A stretch of 25,776 nt of DNA, from positions 1 through 25,776 of the IMG/VR virus record IMGVR_UViG_3300013126_000213; one strand, 5' to 3'. Position 1 is the first letter of the stretch, and each line of letters opens with the position of its first letter. Position numbers and translations under genes: made by a program. The stretch comes from a virus. The notes beneath the pieces are model-generated. The model saw only the letters and a program-made list of their open reading frames with translations. It had not been told where the DNA came from and did not search any database. Positions 1-25,630 of the stretch are shown in pieces.

Positions 1-2487
1 AATAGCGATGCTCTTGAACTTGCCTCGTTTTGTTTTCAGATAGAACACTTTGATTTTCATTCCTGATGTAATCGGCAGGCTTTCTTTGTCGTTATATTCT
101 TGTAACATCAGGTTCCAGTGGATCGCAGCAGCCACATGACCAGGAATGCGTGTCTCCTCCCCATAGATGTTATAATCTTTGGTGTATTCTTCAACACCAT
201 TACACCCCTTTGGAAGACCAATGTCCATGACATTTTCTGCGTTCTTCAACTCATCTTTGTAATCCACGATAGATTGCGAGATTGTTGTCCAGTCTTCACC
301 CTTTAACAACCGTTCAATGAATGTTTCCAAGCGGTCTGATACATGCCGTGGAATGGTCGTCTTCTTGATGGACAATCCCATCACCTTCATCTTATCAACA
401 GCCTTGCCTTCAACATCAACCAAGTGAAGGATGTACAGCTTCTTGCCAACAAAGATGCCACGGTCACTGACGATTTCTCGACCACACTTGATGATGTCAT
501 CAAACCCAGGATTGCACAGGAATGTTCTTTGCATGAACTCCTGGTATGATGCATTCACTTTATCGGCAATTGCGTCAGCAATCTGAATCGCCTCTTCTTT
601 GTTTTCAGCACCAGTTGCAAAATAACACGAGTCGGTGTCACCGTAGACCACGCTTGGTGATTGGAATTGACCCTTGAACTTTGGACCATGCAAGGCAACA
701 TCAGGGCTGTGTCCCGCCTCCTCTGCTTCTTTCACCGTCAGGTACATTGGAATGTCAAAATCGTAGTTACCGTCCAACAACTCACCAACCTTGCGGCACT
801 GGTGCTTCAAGATCATCCGCCCAGTGCCCGTTGTGGATTCACCCATCCGCAAGTCATAGAAACGGAAGTATAGGTTCGTCAGAGCACCGTATAACGAGTT
901 CAGCTTGATCTTATACACATATTGCAGACGGTCGTAGTAATCAGCTTGATCACCAGTAGATTCTTTCTTCAACTTCTGGAACTTTTTGCGTTGAGCGTAC
1001 CAGTCGGCAAGGATTGTTGGGATAATGCCTTGTTTATTTTGGTCAAACACAGTACCATAGCCTGACACAGCCCACTTCCTGTCCTTCAACCACACACGGA
1101 AGTCAGCCCCACTCATTGTGATCTCTTCGCCATTCTCCAATCGCAAGGTGATGTCCTTGAACCCACCTTCAGCAATCTGTTCAGCATCCTTTACATCATT
1201 GATAAATTGACCACGCAATGTCTCTGGGGAGATATTGATTGAGCGAATAGCAGATGGATACAGAGAGTTGATGTCAATTGACCCAACATACTCATGCATG
1301 CCAGCCTGAGGTAACAACACCAACGCGCCTTCAATAGACTTGTCAATTTCGGGCTCAGTAACGTTTTTCACCACACGCTTCAACTCATGATGACAATAAT
1401 TGACAATCGCCAACTCGGCGAGTTTCAGTGTGCCCAACACATGCTGGAATAATCCACACGACATATGGTACATCTGGTTTGCTAGTTCAACATACGCCAA
1501 CTTCTGCTCAAATCCATTCAGGATCTCACAATCTCGTATGTTATACCGCACAAAAAACGCAAAGTCGTTCTTATATAAATCAGCCAAGCTGCCTTCATAG
1601 TGCAACTTGGGCAGCCCCAAACCAACTTCTTGTTCGATAGACTCCAACTTGTATGAGGGCTTTTCGGACATCTCATACTTCCTATATAACTGCATGTAGT
1701 CAGCAAGCATACGGCCTGACGTATTCAACTTCAATGCAGGACCATATGCAGTTTCAATTTCTTCAAACTTTGCAATTTCCGCGCCTGGGAATGATAGGTA
1801 TCGTAGCGACTTCTCGCCAAGAACCTTCTCAAACCGCTTTGCAATGTATGGGAAGTCAAATGTCTCGCTGTTCCAACCACACAACAGGTCACTATCTTGG
1901 ATCTCATGAATAATGTGCAACAGCAGATCCTTCTCATTATCCACAAGAATGTAATCCGTTTTGAATGTTGCTGGGACCTCACAAATCTCATCACACGCTC
2001 GAGACAACAATTCAGGTGTCCAAGGAATACCATCATTGGGAGGAACAGCAACCACAACCATTCGGTTCTGGTGAGTGTGAAACAGCGAAATTGAGTTGAT
2101 TGGAGCGTACGGATTGCGTGTAGAACTGAACCCTACGTCAGGGTCATAGTCAACTTCTATGTCACACATAGTTACGTTTAAACGCGGTGCTTTGACTCCA
2201 TAGTAGTGATTTGACAATACGCGAATTTCAGGCTGAATGTCACTTTCCCATAAGCGGATATGACGCTCTTCCATTTCTTTGCGTTTTTGGTAATGTTCAC
2301 GCCCAGTTTTACTTTCCATCTTGGACACACGATCCCCGTAAATCGTTTGATACTTACCTTTGGGGTCGTCGTAATAGAAGTAATATGGAGCGTCATAAAT
2401 CTGTTCCACTCTATTGCCTTGTTCATCTCGTTCCCAAACGATTACGGCATCTCTGCGTCTGTCAGTAATTGCTGATATGTAACTCAT
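1..2487 (-). CDS. 43: Family B DNA polymerase, T4 gp43 type (3' end outside window)
   Basis: This is the phage replicative DNA polymerase with 3'-5' proofreading. I translated 829 residues from the ATG at 2487; T4 gp43 has 898, so roughly the last 70 residues lie beyond base 1. Exonuclease motifs are visible: DIEVDY (D109, E111), CGWNSETFDFPYI (D211) and YNIRDCEI (D319). Polymerase motifs are DINSLYPS (motif A, D405), KIKLNSLYGAL (motif B) and VYGDTDSCY (motif C, D617 and D619), followed by KKLYIL. Spacing matches T4 closely. The ATG overlaps the stop of the upstream HNH gene as ATGA, and its own Shine-Dalgarno sequence is weak, so translation is probably coupled or depends on a promoter inside the HNH gene. 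The first 17 codons are duplicated upstream of that HNH gene (3258-3323). The identification is secure from the motifs. Confidence 0.97.
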   Translation of the reverse strand, partial: MSYISAITDRRRDAVIVWERDEQGNRVEQIYDAPYYFYYDDPKGKYQTIYGDRVSKMESKTGREHYQKRKEMEERHIRLWESDIQPEIRVLSNHYYGVKAPRLNVTMCDIEVDYDPDVGFSSTRNPYAPINSISLFHTHQNRMVVVAVPPNDGIPWTPELLSRACDEICEVPATFKTDYILVDNEKDLLLHIIHEIQDSDLLCGWNSETFDFPYIAKRFEKVLGEKSLRYLSFPGAEIAKFEEIETAYGPALKLNTSGRMLADYMQLYRKYEMSEKPSYKLESIEQEVGLGLPKLHYEGSLADLYKNDFAFFVRYNIRDCEILNGFEQKLAYVELANQMYHMSCGLFQHVLGTLKLAELAIVNYCHHELKRVVKNVTEPEIDKSIEGALVLLPQAGMHEYVGSIDINSLYPSAIRSINISPETLRGQFINDVKDAEQIAEGGFKDITLRLENGEEITMSGADFRVWLKDRKWAVSGYGTVFDQNKQGIIPTILADWYAQRKKFQKLKKESTGDQADYYDRLQYVYKIKLNSLYGALTNLYFRFYDLRMGESTTGTGRMILKHQCRKVGELLDGNYDFDIPMYLTVKEAEEAGHSPDVALHGPKFKGQFQSPSVVYGDTDSCYFATGAENKEEAIQIADAIADKVNASYQEFMQRTFLCNPGFDDIIKCGREIVSDRGIFVGKKLYILHLVDVEGKAVDKMKVMGLSIKKTTIPRHVSDRLETFIERLLKGEDWTTISQSIVDYKDELKNAENVMDIGLPKGCNGVEEYTKDYNIYGEETRIPGHVAAAIHWNLMLQEYNDKESLPITSGMKIKVFYLKTKRGKFKSIAI

Positions 2488-3197
2488 TTTGTCTTTGTGT
2501 ATCGGTTGATGGTATTATAGCGTTGAATATATTGTACACGATTTCCATTAGCAAGTAAACCGTTTTGTGTGCGTATAGCAAATTTCACACTGTCATACGA
2601 TTTGCCTGTTATGGATCTCACGTCGTCATACGACCAAAATTCTTGTGTTGACCCATCAGGTCTCGTTAGCAACAACAAAGACCCTTTTCCTCTTTTGATA
2701 GCATCTTTTCTCTTTTCCTGATCACAATTGTGAACAGCTTTCATTCGTTGGTGCATCTCGTCAGCAGACATCTGTGACAATGTGGATTTTAACGACAAAC
2801 TGACTTTTGTATAATCATACTTGTATAAGCCTGCAGCATGATTTCCCCTAAATCGTTCTTTTCTTGCTTCGTCTTTATTCGGGTTAAGTTCACTGAACGC
2901 AAGTCTCGCTGTTTCATATGCTCTGCTGGATATTTTTCGTTGTTCCACCAGTGTTTTGCTTAAAAACCACATCGCGTATACCATCTTTTTGTGAGCTTCA
3001 CCGCCAACCGGTTTGTAAATCTTAACAAGCAATCTGTGCGCAACATAATGTTCTCTTGCTGTCAAGTGTACCAGATTGTCTTTTTTGTTTGATCCACCCA
3101 GACTTTTTGGTATGATGTGATGGCGTTCTGTATATCCAACAAGCTGTCTGTTTTGTGCCTTGTGTATTAAGTTGTCGTAAATTGTTTGGTAGTTCAT
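2484..3197 (-). CDS. HNH homing endonuclease inserted at the 5' end of the DNA polymerase gene
   Basis: This is a free-standing HNH endonuclease of about 237 residues. The HNH core lies near the N-terminus (ERHHIIPKSLGG, then NLVHLTAREHYVAHRLLVKIY). The C-terminal part (RPDGSTQEFWSYDDVRSITG) resembles the NUMOD1-type helix-turn-helix that helps such enzymes bind their target. I chose the ATG at 3197 over one at 3233 because it follows AAAGGAG by 6 bases; the longer start would read through the late promoter. Its stop overlaps the polymerase ATG (ATGA). A recoded copy of the polymerase start precedes it, so it appears to have invaded polymerase around codon 17-18 and rebuilt the start behind itself. 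The family is clear; the cleavage site is inferred from the duplication. Confidence 0.9.
   Translation of the reverse strand: MNYQTIYDNLIHKAQNRQLVGYTERHHIIPKSLGGSNKKDNLVHLTAREHYVAHRLLVKIYKPVGGEAHKKMVYAMWFLSKTLVEQRKISSRAYETARLAFSELNPNKDEARKERFRGNHAAGLYKYDYTKVSLSLKSTLSQMSADEMHQRMKAVHNCDQEKRKDAIKRGKGSLLLLTRPDGSTQEFWSYDDVRSITGKSYDSVKFAIRTQNGLLANGNRVQYIQRYNTINRYTKTK
2531..2559 (-). promoter_or_regulatory. Possible sigma70-type promoter for DNA polymerase
   Basis: On the minus strand, TTTACT and TACAAT are separated by exactly 17 bases within the 3' end of the HNH endonuclease gene. Transcription would begin just upstream of the polymerase start. This could supply polymerase mRNA independently of the endonuclease. 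Two positions of the -35 differ from consensus, so chance is possible. Confidence 0.35.
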
Positions 3198-3228
3198 ATA
3201 CTTCTCCTTTCGTATAGAAGTATTTATG
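3198..3228 (-). promoter_or_regulatory. T4-type late promoter with a hairpin over the ribosome binding site
   Basis: CATAAATA (minus strand, 3228-3221) is the late promoter. Its last bases begin the 8-base arm ATACTTCT (3223-3216), which pairs perfectly with AGAAGTAT (3205-3198) beside the start codon, with AAAGG in the loop. A late transcript starting about six bases after the promoter would lack the first arm and leave the binding site free. A read-through transcript would fold and hide it. Confidence 0.75.
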
Positions 3229-3257
3229 AGCACTACCTCAATATCCAGAAAAATATA

Positions 3258-6258: not shown

Positions 6259-6335
6259 CATAAATAATAGTATACAGATATTTTTTCTGTATGACAACAA
6301 GAAGTGTGGTTCACGAGATTGCCGTCTCCAACCAC
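6259..6335 (+). promoter_or_regulatory. Late promoter and two-hairpin leader of GIY-YIG endonuclease 1
   Basis: CATAAATA at 6259-6266 predicts a transcript start near 6272. The first hairpin, ATACAGA/TCTGTAT (6272-6278 with 6286-6292), therefore sits at the very 5' end of the RNA. After GACAACAA comes a second hairpin, GTGGTT/AACCAC (6306-6311 with 6330-6335), with an inner GAGA/TCTC stem. The layout is shared with the leader at 7775, although the stem sequences differ. Confidence 0.7.
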
Positions 6336-6360
6336 TCTAACGCTTACAAGGAGCATCAGC

Positions 6361-7029
6361 ATGACTATTTATACATCCGAAAAGGTGATGCCATATGTGT
6401 ATATGTGCATTCACAAGCAAACAGGTCAGTTTTATATTGGGTCAAGATATACAAAAACCCAACGACTTCCCTCTCACTTAGACTTTCCTCAATATCGCAC
6501 ATCCAGCAAACGCGTAAAGCCAATATTTGATGAGTTTGATTGGTTTATTGTGGCTGAATTTTTTGACAAAGCTGCAGCATACGAAACCGAACAGCAGCTA
6601 ATATATGAAAATTGGAATAACCCAAACTTATTAAATGGGGTATGTCGCCACGCCAACAACAAAATGTTTGCTCCAGAAAAATCTACAATGTCCGAGGATC
6701 GTCGTCAAAAATTAATAGAATTCAACAAAACTCGCAAAGGAACTAAAGCATCACCCGCAACACGCGCCAAAATGTCAGCTACCAGAAAGGGTAAACAATG
6801 GAATACCATGACTGACGAAGTTAAAAATAAAATATCTCAAGCTAATAAAGGCAAACAATTAACTGAAGAGCAGCGGCAAAAACACAAAGAAGCTACCGCC
6901 GCAGCAAACAGGGCCAGATGTGTTGGTAAAAAACGAGATCCAGAAGTGGCACGGAAAGCGTGGGAAACTCGCCGTGCCAAACAGCTTACTGTCAACGATA
7001 AAATCTGTGCCCACCGATCTCAACAGTAA
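6361..7029 (+). CDS. GIY-YIG homing endonuclease 1 (Seg-like)
   Basis: A 222-residue free-standing endonuclease. The GIY-YIG module is N-terminal (YVYMCIHKQTGQFYIGSR, with the catalytic-type Glu in YETEQQLIYENW). NUMOD3-like DNA-binding repeats follow (PATRAKMSATRKGKQW, LTEEQRQKHKEAT). I chose the ATG at 6361, nine bases after AAGGAG, over an ATG at 6304 inside the leader hairpin. It is a paralogue of the gene at 7872. It lies on the opposite strand to its neighbours, and its last 38 bases overlap the 3' end of the SleB-type gene, convergently. Confidence 0.92.
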   Translation: MTIYTSEKVMPYVYMCIHKQTGQFYIGSRYTKTQRLPSHLDFPQYRTSSKRVKPIFDEFDWFIVAEFFDKAAAYETEQQLIYENWNNPNLLNGVCRHANNKMFAPEKSTMSEDRRQKLIEFNKTRKGTKASPATRAKMSATRKGKQWNTMTDEVKNKISQANKGKQLTEEQRQKHKEATAAANRARCVGKKRDPEVARKAWETRRAKQLTVNDKICAHRSQQ

Positions 7030-7774: not shown

Positions 7775-7846
7775 TATAAATAATTATACATGAAAAAAAT
7801 TCATGACAACAAATATGTCTGTCGCGATGGTGGAACATCCACAGAC
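7775..7846 (+). promoter_or_regulatory. Late promoter and two-hairpin leader of GIY-YIG endonuclease 2
   Basis: TATAAATA at 7775-7782 is the exact T4 late consensus, with an expected start near 7788. Hairpin 1 is CATGAA/TTCATG (7789-7794 with 7800-7805), followed by GACAACAA. Hairpin 2 is GTCTGT/ACAGAC (7817-7822 with 7841-7846), with an alternative inner GTGGA/TCCAC. Downstream ACTCTAACGCTTA and GGAGCATCAGCATG match the leader of the gene at 6361. Confidence 0.75.
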
Positions 7847-7871
7847 TCTAACGCTTATGAGGAGCATCAGC

Positions 7872-8522
7872 ATGTATATTTATACTTCTTTGTGTCAATC
7901 AGACAAACCGATGCCATATGTTTATATGTGTATCCATAAACAAACGGGACATTTTTATATCGGGTCAAGAGCACGAAAAACCTTAAAATATCCTTCAAAT
8001 GTTGATCTGCCATTGTATAAAACATCCAGTAAAGTAGTAAAACCCAACTTTGATAATTATGCTTGGGTTATTTTAGCAGAATTTTTTGATCCAAATGATG
8101 CGTGGGATTTTGAACAACAAACCATACATGAACATTGGGGTAATCCTTTACTCATAAATCAGACGTGCATGTGGCAAAACAAACGGCGATTCACCACAAT
8201 AGACAGAACATACACACATAGTGCCAGCACCAAAGAAAAAATTGCTGCTTCTAAACGCGGCAAAAAACGGTCATCAGAAGCAATTAAAGCTATGTCAGAA
8301 AGCAGACTCGGTAAAAAGCGTGGTCCATTATCCGACGAGGTTAAGACAAAAATGCGCCACGCAGCTGCCAATAGACCTCCTGTAACAAGCGAAACTCGTG
8401 CTAAACTATCCGCTGCTGCCAAAAAACGTTGTCAAAATAATCCCGCGCGTGCCTCGCAAACCGCAGAAATTATGCGCCTCGCAAAACAGCTTCACAACAA
8501 GCCAGAAAACCAGAATGTGTAA
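7872..8522 (+). CDS. GIY-YIG homing endonuclease 2 (Seg-like)
   Basis: A 216-residue paralogue of the endonuclease at 6361. Both share PYVYMCIHKQTG, FYIGSR, a KTSSK/RTSSK segment and a glutamate region (here WDFEQQTIHEHWGNP). NUMOD3-like repeats fill the C-terminal half (ASTKEKIAASKRGKKRSSEA, SETRAKLSAAAKKR). The ATG at 7872 follows GAGGAG and sits at the same place as in the paralogue. Its last 31 bases overlap the 3' end of the 2OG oxygenase gene, convergently, mirroring how endonuclease 1 overlaps the SleB gene. Confidence 0.92.
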   Translation: MYIYTSLCQSDKPMPYVYMCIHKQTGHFYIGSRARKTLKYPSNVDLPLYKTSSKVVKPNFDNYAWVILAEFFDPNDAWDFEQQTIHEHWGNPLLINQTCMWQNKRRFTTIDRTYTHSASTKEKIAASKRGKKRSSEAIKAMSESRLGKKRGPLSDEVKTKMRHAAANRPPVTSETRAKLSAAAKKRCQNNPARASQTAEIMRLAKQLHNKPENQNV

Positions 8523-18846: not shown

Positions 18847-19299
18847 ATGGAAGATACTTTTTACGTTTATGCTCACTATGAAGACGATATATTGGTTTAT
18901 ATTGGAAAAGGACAGGGCGGTCGAGTGCTATCAACCAATGCAAGGTTAAATAAGCCTCATCGGCAGTTTATGATGTCTCAGATTCACAATGGTAACATAG
19001 CATTTGCTAAAATATTAAAGACGGGATTGCATGAACAGGAAGCGTTGAGTGTGGAACGGGCGATGATAAAAGAACACCAGCCTAAATTCAACAGACGTTA
19101 TACCGAAAAACAGGCAGTAAAAGCCAAAGAAATAGCAATGAATGCATCTCGCGCTTCAATGAAACCTGTGCAAACACCTGCAGGTGTATTTGAATCAGCC
19201 AGGGCCGCAGCAAGATATTATGGGGTGACATCGGGTGCCATATGGCACAGAATCAAGGATAACCCTGACGAATATTATTATATAAAGGATAAAACATGA
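18847..19299 (+). CDS. GIY-YIG homing endonuclease between nrdA and nrdB
   Basis: A 150-residue endonuclease. The GIY-YIG core is N-terminal (FYVYAHYEDDILVYIGKGQGGR, with Glu in SVERAMIKEHQPKFNRRY). The C-terminus is a NUMOD1-like helix-turn-helix (TPAGVFESARAAARYYGVTS, then AIWHRI). It differs from the two GIY-YIG genes at 6361 and 7872, which carry NUMOD3-like repeats. The start follows AAAGGAG. Its stop overlaps the nrdB ATG as ATGA, the same coupling seen between the HNH gene and polymerase. No duplicate of the nrdB start is visible upstream. Confidence 0.92.
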   Translation: MEDTFYVYAHYEDDILVYIGKGQGGRVLSTNARLNKPHRQFMMSQIHNGNIAFAKILKTGLHEQEALSVERAMIKEHQPKFNRRYTEKQAVKAKEIAMNASRASMKPVQTPAGVFESARAAARYYGVTSGAIWHRIKDNPDEYYYIKDKT

Positions 19300-24223: not shown

Positions 24224-24804
24224 TCAATCTCCTTTTCCATGGTGATCTAGCGCTCTCAACTCACGCCTTCCAATTTTTTGGATCACCTCTTGCAGACTGA
24301 TGGGACGCATACCGTGGCAATCCATCCCAACATCCATGGATCGTGTTCCATCATCAGGCATCGTTCCGTGGCTGTGTCCAAATAAATGCAGTGAACCGTG
24401 GTGGCTCTTATTCCACACCTTCATTGCATAGTGACACATGATAATCTTGACCCCCTTACCGCCCCCATCCGGTTTGAAGTCTCGTTCAAGCAGTTCATGC
24501 TCTTCATCGAAATAAGCACGCAGCGGAATGCTGTTACGGATCACCTTATCGTGGTTACCGTAGATCAAGATCTTGATGCCGTTCAACCTAGACAGAATGC
24601 TGTTTGTTGTCTTTTCATCAGCGAATGAGATATCTCCCAAAATATAGATGTGGTCGTATTGTTGAACTGTATTGTTCCAGTTCGTAATGATAGCCTCATT
24701 CATTTCCTCTACTGAGGCAAATGGACGGTTGCAGTACTTGATAATGTTTGCGTGCCCAAAGTGGATCCTCGCTAGATGTCCGAGGTAAAATATACCCCGG
24801 ACAC
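24224..24804 (-). CDS. Calcineurin-like metallophosphoesterase, frame interrupted by an 11-base insertion
   Basis: A GTG at 24804, about six bases after AAAGGA, reads MSGVYFTSDI and then meets TAG (24774-24772). Skipping eight bases from the ATC codon before the stop to a second ATC (24766-24764) continues HFGHANIIKYCNRPF and the rest. The joined product is about 189 residues with all five family motifs: SDIHFGH, LGDISF, GNHD, CHYAM and GHSHG. Without the skip, translation could begin only at ATG 24703 (159 residues), losing the first metal-binding motif and probably activity. A -1 frameshift would instead insert LAR between the motif's Asp and His. The gene follows an HNH endonuclease gene with one base between. 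It is either a bypassed gene or a recent pseudogene; the otherwise well-kept frame and binding site favour use. Substrate unknown. Confidence 0.75.
24764..24785 (-). other. Candidate translational bypass element (hairpin, stop and matched codons)
   Basis: On the minus strand, CCTCG (24785-24781), loop GACATCTAG, CGAGG (24771-24767), then ATC CAC. The loop holds the possible take-off codon ATC followed at once by TAG. The possible landing codon ATC comes directly after the hairpin, and GAGG next to it resembles a Shine-Dalgarno sequence. T4 gene 60 bypassing likewise uses matched take-off and landing codons, a UAG after take-off and a hairpin holding both. Whether ribosomes skip here is untested. 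Confidence 0.55.
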
Positions 24805-24805
24805 C

Positions 24806-25630
24806 TTATTTCCTTTCATATCTCTTTCCATTTTCGTATTCCTTTATTCGTTGTAACACGATCTCGTGCTCACACCACTCCTTGTTGTATCGTCGTATCG
24901 CCTCAAACAACTCATCCAGAGTGTGACCGTCATCATCCACATAACGCTCTTTTTTCTTTGCAACGTTTTCGCTGTGCAATAGTATCTGACAGTTTGCAGG
25001 ATGTCTCATTATTTCCGGAAAAACCCCGTTGTAAAAACCAGATTTTCTTCCGTATATGTGGTCTCTAACAACTCCTTTTGTGTTTGTTTTTGCATTGAAT
25101 ACGCCATACTCTAATAGTATTTGTCTAGGGTCGTCAATAATATCAAACATTCGGCTAATCCAGTTTGCCTCTTTCTGATATACTTCCCAATCACTTTTCA
25201 GTTCAAGCGGTATCCAAACACCTTTCTCTTCTCGTATTCTTCTATTACGCTGTTTATATTCATCGGTCCATTTGGCCGACGATTTTTGTCCAATAATCCG
25301 TCTTGTTTCATCATTAGGGTAATGCTGATAACTTTCACGCGTCCGGTGAGCATGCATTTTTTGTATCCGGTCTTCGCTGAACTTTTTGCCCCTATTTGTT
25401 TTACCACACGCATGTGCCTTATCAGGGTTCTCTGCAAAAAACTTTCGTTTTTCCTCACCTGCCTGCTTCCGCTGTTCCTCTGTCCATTTGTTGCCGTAGT
25501 TTGGGTTATTCTCGCCTATGTTGCCTATGGCCAAACAAGCCTTGCTACAAAAATGTCTTGGTTTTTCATCATAGATGTATCGGTCAAACTGTTTATTGCA
25601 AATACAACATTGTAAAGTTGCTTTTGGCAT
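24806..25630 (-). CDS. HNH homing endonuclease inserted at the 5' end of the metallophosphoesterase gene
   Basis: A 274-residue endonuclease. The N-terminus has a zinc-finger-like CCICNKQF...FCSKAC. NUMOD3-like segments follow (NPNYGNKWTEEQRKQAGEEK, GKKFSEDRIQKMHAHR, SSAKWTDEYKQRN). The HNH-type core is C-terminal: VVRDHIYGRKSGFYNGVFPE, then HPANCQILLHSENVAKK. It is unlike the HNH gene at 2484. The start at 25630 follows AGGAG. Like that gene, it sits between a fossil of the target gene start (25676-25708) and a rebuilt start (24804). The insertion in the rebuilt copy may protect it from cleavage, as proposed for T4 MobA and gene 60. Confidence 0.9.
   Translation of the reverse strand: MPKATLQCCICNKQFDRYIYDEKPRHFCSKACLAIGNIGENNPNYGNKWTEEQRKQAGEEKRKFFAENPDKAHACGKTNRGKKFSEDRIQKMHAHRTRESYQHYPNDETRRIIGQKSSAKWTDEYKQRNRRIREEKGVWIPLELKSDWEVYQKEANWISRMFDIIDDPRQILLEYGVFNAKTNTKGVVRDHIYGRKSGFYNGVFPEIMRHPANCQILLHSENVAKKKERYVDDDGHTLDELFEAIRRYNKEWCEHEIVLQRIKEYENGKRYERK

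Follow-up and report, generated by a model that had tools for sequence, protein, structure and literature searches.

How could a phage metallophosphoesterase (MPE) gene remain in use when its reading frame is broken inside a catalytic motif? The question is raised by the window, i.e., the whole 25,776-nt stretch of viral DNA analyzed here. On its minus strand, a GTG at 24804 opens a frame that reads MSGVYFTSDI and then UAG, and HFGHANIIKY resumes after 11 nt. This first open frame covers 24772..24804; an ATG at 24819 is an alternative start in the same frame, and AAGGA (24815-24811) lies 6 nt before the GTG (24804-24802). The last sense codon, AUC for Ile (24775..24777), is the take-off codon, and the UAG stop (24772..24774) follows it directly. 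The skipped 11-nt stretch, UAGCGAGGAUC (24764..24774), has as its last triplet the landing codon, a second AUC (24766-24764), and removal of TAGCGAGGATC (24774-24764) fuses SDI with HFGH. The second open frame (24224..24763; 179 codons plus stop) starts with the CAC of HFGH at 24763, contains no stop until TGA at 24226-24224, and represents the MPE body with its HFGH, GD, GNHD, H, and GHSH motifs. It matches the phrog_547 phosphoesterase (E 2.8e-51) and retains 20 of 21 highly conserved positions; the solved relative 1XM7 opens with a comparable motif, SDTHFYHENII. This anatomy is shown. A first-pass annotation, made from sequence alone, had claimed the GTG with a binding site, the two frames, and the restoration of SDIHFGH upon removal of 11 bases, all of which held on reading the sequence; the identical ATC borders, the UAG after the first of them, a 5-bp hairpin, and a GAGG at the second ATC, which it had also claimed, are all present.

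We consider it likely that the window contains a short programmed translational bypass that lets the MPE gene survive an insertion tied to the neighboring homing endonuclease. This reading rests on no protein, ribosome-profiling, or reporter data, and translation across the gap is inferred. The first-pass annotation had likewise inferred a miniature bypass element, similar to that of T4 gene 60, beside a homing endonuclease. Comparative evidence supports this inference because the arrangement recurs, take-off and landing codons match, a stop follows take-off, 5' stem-loops are present, the downstream genes are intact, and one locus, L031, carries a T4 hairpin.

The neighboring gene (24806..25630, minus strand; 274 aa) encodes a putative HNH-type, NUMOD3-containing endonuclease, as assigned by a family profile and conserved residues, and its TAA stop (24808-24806) lies just before the GTG at 24804. 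NUMOD3 was found in 14 of 15 family members, and the window member scores below the curated cut-off (E 0.0026). The residues invariant in the family, D190-H191, N213, and N222, fall on a predicted strand-strand-helix, and residues 156-251 give only weak alignments (Z 2-3.2) with many HNH nuclease domains. The HNH model had no confident Foldseek match, and neither fold comparison nor Pfam gave a confident nuclease hit. With the family profile, 15 further lineages were identified in IMG/VR, in each of which the HNH gene is directly upstream of an MPE gene; the family, thus, adjoins an MPE gene in 16/16 lineages, window included. The collection of bacterial and archaeal genomes searched contained no HNH relatives. 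In isolate phages only remote relatives were detected, and the single one examined, in Serratia phage BF, is not beside an MPE gene. No description of an HNH-MPE family was found in the literature searched, which was restricted to open-access papers. The HNH gene of L038 is itself broken, and that of L035 (3001-3957) has a tandem duplication of the nuclease segment, in which KLGVFNKDTNSKGVVRDHSYSRWDGFKVGVFPEIL occurs twice.

Several lines of evidence connect the interruption to this endonuclease. First, the closest relative, L002 (66% identical MPE), lacks the 11-nt stretch, has an uninterrupted motif, and has no HNH gene at that place; its MPE gene sits right after a topoisomerase large-subunit gene. 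Second, in 10 of the 16 HNH-family lineages, window included, the MPE gene is interrupted inside SDxHFGH by differing inserts, while six HNH-adjacent MPE genes are continuous at the junction (L034, L035, L036, L038, L053, and L054). Third, among 78 MPE loci without this HNH gene, 76 are continuous and only two are disrupted. The association between disruption and the HNH gene is significant (Fisher 1e-7), also once controls are clustered at 60% identity (1.5e-6). Because the L002 motif is continuous without the HNH gene and other lineages show the same layout, the arrangement in the window is more than chance. Both the recurrence and the HNH association are shown. The comparison of relatives with and without the 11 bases, which the first-pass annotation had proposed as a check, gave a closest relative without the insert and other HNH-linked lineages with different inserts, and the disruptions lie inside the same motif as in the window rather than at unrelated sites.

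The two exceptions among the HNH-free loci, L116 and L121, are additional cases of the same kind. In L121, HNH genes are found nearby, and the MPE gene of L116 is beside a LAGLIDADG gene (PF14528, E 8e-7). In the latter locus (696-2007), the LAGLIDADG gene is directly upstream of an MPE gene bearing the same kind of hop element, and different nuclease families may possibly have reached the same solution. None of the 80 closest relatives of L049, a disrupted locus, was disrupted (0/80, all continuous), and neither was any of 120 listed isolate hits (0/120), which comprised 60 distributed across 1,724 records and the 60 top hits of a different query and in which continuity was judged by the alignment beginning before the motif. 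In a third isolate listing, three Rheinheimera hits begin late; in the one that was inspected, the gene contains an in-frame insert at a different place. In this phage, Barba16S (L220:442-1911), an intein-like, in-frame insert of ~300 residues starting CIAEDTEVLTSDGW is located inside the GNHD catalytic motif; the Barba21A gene is uninterrupted. The control sets were the 80 best-scoring loci and not random ones, and the broad MPE alignment was too diverse for use as a search query. Moreover, the lineages are not fully independent. L037 and L056 have an identical insert and may not be independent of each other.

All interrupted examples are uncultivated contigs, and an assembly or sequencing artefact must be considered. 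In its favor, the window comes from a metagenomic contig, and near records were outside the search. An exact search, which did not cover the window's own and very near records, found its junction in no other viral contig. Against it, a similar lesion is present in 12 lineages, three lesions recur base for base in two or three separate assemblies each (L043/L044, L049-L051, and L056/L058), and the rest of the window's genes are intact. We regard this explanation as all but excluded.

How is the frame restored? In eight loci, a hop would suffice. Giving the take-off codon, then the skipped nucleotides with the landing triplet last, and their number in parentheses, these are the window with ATC, TAGCGAGG-ATC (11); L030 with TCA, TGA-TCG (6); L031 with GGT, TAGCCTTCGGGCTAATTTATGAA-GGA (26); L032 with CAT, TGAC-CAC (7); L037 with TCC, TA-GCT (5); L056 with ACG, TA-GCT (5); L116 with CAT, TAGTT-AAC (8); and L121 with CAT, TG-AAT (5). 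In all eight, a stop is immediately 3' of the take-off codon and the skip of 5-26 nt regains D-x-H-x-x-H. The match between landing and take-off codons exceeds that of random triplets from the same loci (p 1.5e-5), and the middle base is the same in 8/8 cases. The match is complete in the window (AUC/AUC); in L037, L056, L116, and L121, the landing triplet pairs only partly with the take-off tRNA, and in four homologues just one or two positions agree. The remaining four interrupted loci, L033, L043, L048, and L049, each have a single base added at the Phe codon (UUU-C or UUU-U), and a one-base slip at UUU-Y would restore the motif in all four. These loci could undergo programmed +1 frameshifting at the motif.

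Other routes to an MPE product from the window would be a -1 frameshift on UAU UUU A, readthrough of UAG, or translation of the second frame from an internal start. The second frame is indeed open upstream as far as the HNH stop, and it contains an ATG at 24703. However, the -1 shift yields ...YLGHLARIHFGH and loses the metal-binding Asp, readthrough remains in the wrong frame, a start at ATG 24703 loses the entire first motif, and none of the three suits the other seven hop cases. Hence, these routes are close to ruled out.

The hop cases also share a structure. In the window, a 5' stem-loop with a 13-bp stem (two G-U pairs) and a 5-nt loop is predicted at 24775..24805 (minus strand), with GGTGTCCGGGGTA and TACCTCGGACATC as arms and a predicted energy of -21.4 kcal/mol (z -6.0 versus dinucleotide shuffles). 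The take-off codon terminates its 3' arm, and the GTG start is within its 5' arm. The 5-bp CCTCG/CGAGG hairpin, which holds ATC-UAG in its loop and which the first-pass annotation had counted among the parts of its bypass element, reaches -7.1 kcal/mol taken alone. The two structures use the same CCTCG and are mutually exclusive. The 5-bp hairpin was, therefore, rejected in favor of the far stronger stem, and this part of the earlier claim probably needs correcting. The GAGG held only in part: it touches the landing codon without a spacer, unlike in T4, and is not common to the other cases.

When the 57-nt segment whose last codon is the one following Asp was folded and compared with shuffles, the z-scores were -6.0 for the window, -4.8 for L037, -4.0 for L030, -3.8 for L056, and -3.7 for L032, whereas continuous loci had no such folding excess in this test (-1.9 to +0.5). 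We also scored the best helix whose 3' arm finishes near the take-off codon. It has 13 bp in the window, 8 in L030, 7 in L031, 13 in L032, 10 in L037, 9 in L056, 8 in L116, and 9 in L121, whereas control helices are mostly 3-6 bp (Mann-Whitney 4e-6); a score of ≥7 was reached by 8/8 hop cases but only 5/70 controls (Fisher 5e-8). Where the codons for S-D are altered (TCG GAC versus GCT/TCT GAC), the 5' arms are altered to match (GTCCG versus GTCAG). The +1 class has no strong stems; in the helix scoring, the anchor of L033 was misplaced by one base, without effect on the conclusions. Altogether, we find it likely that the functional hairpin is the 13-bp stem, which lies 5' of the take-off codon and includes it; the stem is predicted, and its re-forming behind the ribosome is inferred.

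Alternatively, the inverted repeat might act on DNA or on initiation, as an endonuclease binding site, as a cruciform, or by shutting off the MPE start, with the frame break being incidental. The GTG in the 5' arm fits this explanation since the stem could hold initiation down or link it to translation of the HNH gene. By contrast, the 3' arm follows the take-off codon even though take-off occurs after D-x, D-x-H, or D-x-H-x-G depending on the locus, and, among the loci folded, the HNH-adjacent continuous MPE genes have no such stem. As a replacement for bypassing, we hold this explanation to be very unlikely. As an addition to it, the inverted repeat may possibly also matter at the DNA level. 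Similarly, because the start codon is inside the 5' arm, MPE initiation might be coupled to HNH translation and depend on ribosomes completing the HNH gene, a possibility that is inference only.

Bypassing in T4 gene 60, which is beside the HNH gene mobA, is driven by a 5' stem-loop, an adjacent stop, and matched codons (PMC5009743; PMC11194080), and the stem geometry of the MPE hop cases is that proposed for the T4 5' stem-loop motor (PMC5009743; PMC11194080). The window shares with T4 a stop directly 3' of take-off, a matched landing codon, and a 5' stem-loop potentially acting as a motor. In both, an HNH endonuclease gene is nearby and the insert is missing in relatives without the endonuclease. 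Three other T4 features are missing in the window. First, there is no UUCG take-off hairpin. Second, because only about 9-13 codons precede take-off, a T4-type nascent-peptide signal of the KKYK type, 25-30 residues back, is impossible. Third, the GAGG abuts AUC, whereas the Shine-Dalgarno-like GAG in T4 is ~6 nt 5' of landing. The window stem, unlike that of T4, also extends into the take-off codon; the gap is 50 nt in T4 versus 5-26 nt in the MPE hop cases; the interrupted gene is a topoisomerase gene in T4 and an MPE gene here; and mobA is annotated as defective, whereas the window endonuclease gene is intact. With three T4 features met and three failed, the window element likely works like T4 gene 60 but as a variant rather than a member of that type; laboratory proof is missing.

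L031 comes closer. Its gap starts with the first 14 gap nucleotides of T4 gene 60, TAGCCTTCGGGCTA (14/14 identical), including the UUCG take-off hairpin; the T4 gap reads TAGCCTTCGGGCTATCTATAG... after take-off GGA, and the L031 gap reads TAGCCTTCGGGCTAATTTATGAAGGA after GGT. Among 219 loci compared, the 14-mer was present only in L031 (and its duplicate records L042 and L070) and T4. The T4-like hairpin (L031:3880-3960), with GGT take-off and GGA landing, lies within a phosphoesterase gene on a viral contig of 194 kb. L031 is, in all likelihood, close to a true relative of the T4 gene 60 element.

The main alternative, already named in the first-pass annotation, is a loss-of-function scar. 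In this view, small inserts remained after error-prone repair of endonuclease cuts in the motif, and these phages no longer have a working MPE. In support, the lesions vary in length and sequence (1-26 nt), every lesion is at one presumed target site beside an endonuclease, and no protein product has been shown. Several observations argue against it. First, all 12 interrupted genes are open to the normal stop (to the contig end in L037) and preserve 18-21 of 21 highly conserved positions, catalytic residues among them, which is comparable to uninterrupted HNH-adjacent MPE genes (17-21/21); this conservation is shown. Second, L049 evolves no faster than its intact kin (median pN 0.154, inside the intact range of 0.118-0.170); dN/dS for pairs of interrupted genes was uninformative since synonymous sites are saturated. 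Third, stops, landing codons, and stems are positioned as bypassing requires, the T4 take-off hairpin is present in L031, and all +1 lesions are at a UUU-Y slip site. The scar is, therefore, unlikely, i.e., weakened but not excluded. In L037 (4460-4776), where the MPE frame continues to the contig end, base composition seems to shift, and this end is perhaps chimeric.

In trees, the hop class is not a single clade. The +1 loci L043, L048, and L049 group on the HNH tree (97/95), while the L049 MPE is nearer to intact MPEs than to that of L048, a pattern that fits transfer of endonuclease and lesion as a unit, which we suggest only as a possibility.

In the bypass reading that we prefer, the insertion would have been made or selected in connection with the adjacent homing endonuclease. 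By analogy with what is proposed for the T4 gene 60 insert, SDxHFGH would be the endonuclease target and the lesion would prevent re-cutting; cleavage of the motif, homing, and immunity through the insert are all inferred. The ribosome would decode MSGVYFTSDI and pause when AUC occupies the P site and UAG the A site. Unwound by this ribosome, the stem (24805-24775) could re-pair only once its 3' arm exits the ribosome, and its re-pairing would draw the mRNA back relative to the ribosome. The peptidyl-tRNA-Ile would release the first AUC, shift 11 nt, and re-pair with the second, and decoding would resume at CAC, giving a product that recovers the Asp and His of the metal-binding D-x-H.

Other recoding systems resemble the MPE cases in part. 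In Magnusiomyces capitatus mitochondria, short non-coding blocks are skipped, frames are rescued, and landing codons are sometimes imperfectly matched; however, the 81 inserts in this yeast reportedly appear independent of mRNA context (PMC5009743), whereas the MPE cases are in phage genes, have a strong stem, and affect each gene at a single site. Synthetic stop-hops in E. coli, in which matched codons flank a stop, are likewise very short P-site tRNA hops over a stop, but these constructs are artificial, and the MPE cases are natural, recurrent, and stem associated. Programmed +1 frameshifting at UUU, e.g., in a rhizobial integrative element, resembles the one-base slips of L033, L043, L048, and L049; it would be a sister solution at the same site and not the mechanism of the window.

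T4 gene 60 bypassing has been considered unique among T4-related phages (PMC3014915), and the existence of shorter-gap counterparts was assumed long ago (PMC5009743). The balance of evidence tips slightly toward a bolder reading, in which widespread homing-endonuclease cassettes in phages couple a nuclease with a recoding signal that hides the target-site lesion in a conserved enzyme motif. These signals would be hops of 5-26 nt driven by a stem, hops with a T4-type hairpin, or +1 slips. In its simplest version, such a signal would consist of a stop and a stem adjoining the take-off codon and would function without a nascent-peptide signal. If so, T4 gene 60 would be one member of a larger phenomenon and not a unique oddity. 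If bypassing is confirmed, the eight natural candidates (gaps of 5 to 26 nt) would allow comparison where only a single case existed, would reveal which signal parts are needed, and would show how selfish endonucleases can occupy catalytic motifs while the gene survives. Such interrupted genes will be cut short or overlooked by gene callers.

The window, a 25.8-kb fragment of a T4-like phage, contains five likely mobile endonuclease genes (2484-3233 (-), 6304-7029 (+), 7803-8522 (+), 18847-19299 (+), and 24806-25630 (-)). They comprise an HNH gene at the DNA polymerase gene, two phrog_314 homing endonucleases, a GIY-YIG-like gene between nrdA-like and nrdB-like genes, and the HNH/NUMOD3 gene beside the MPE gene. 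The polymerase and reductase frames near those endonuclease genes appear intact.
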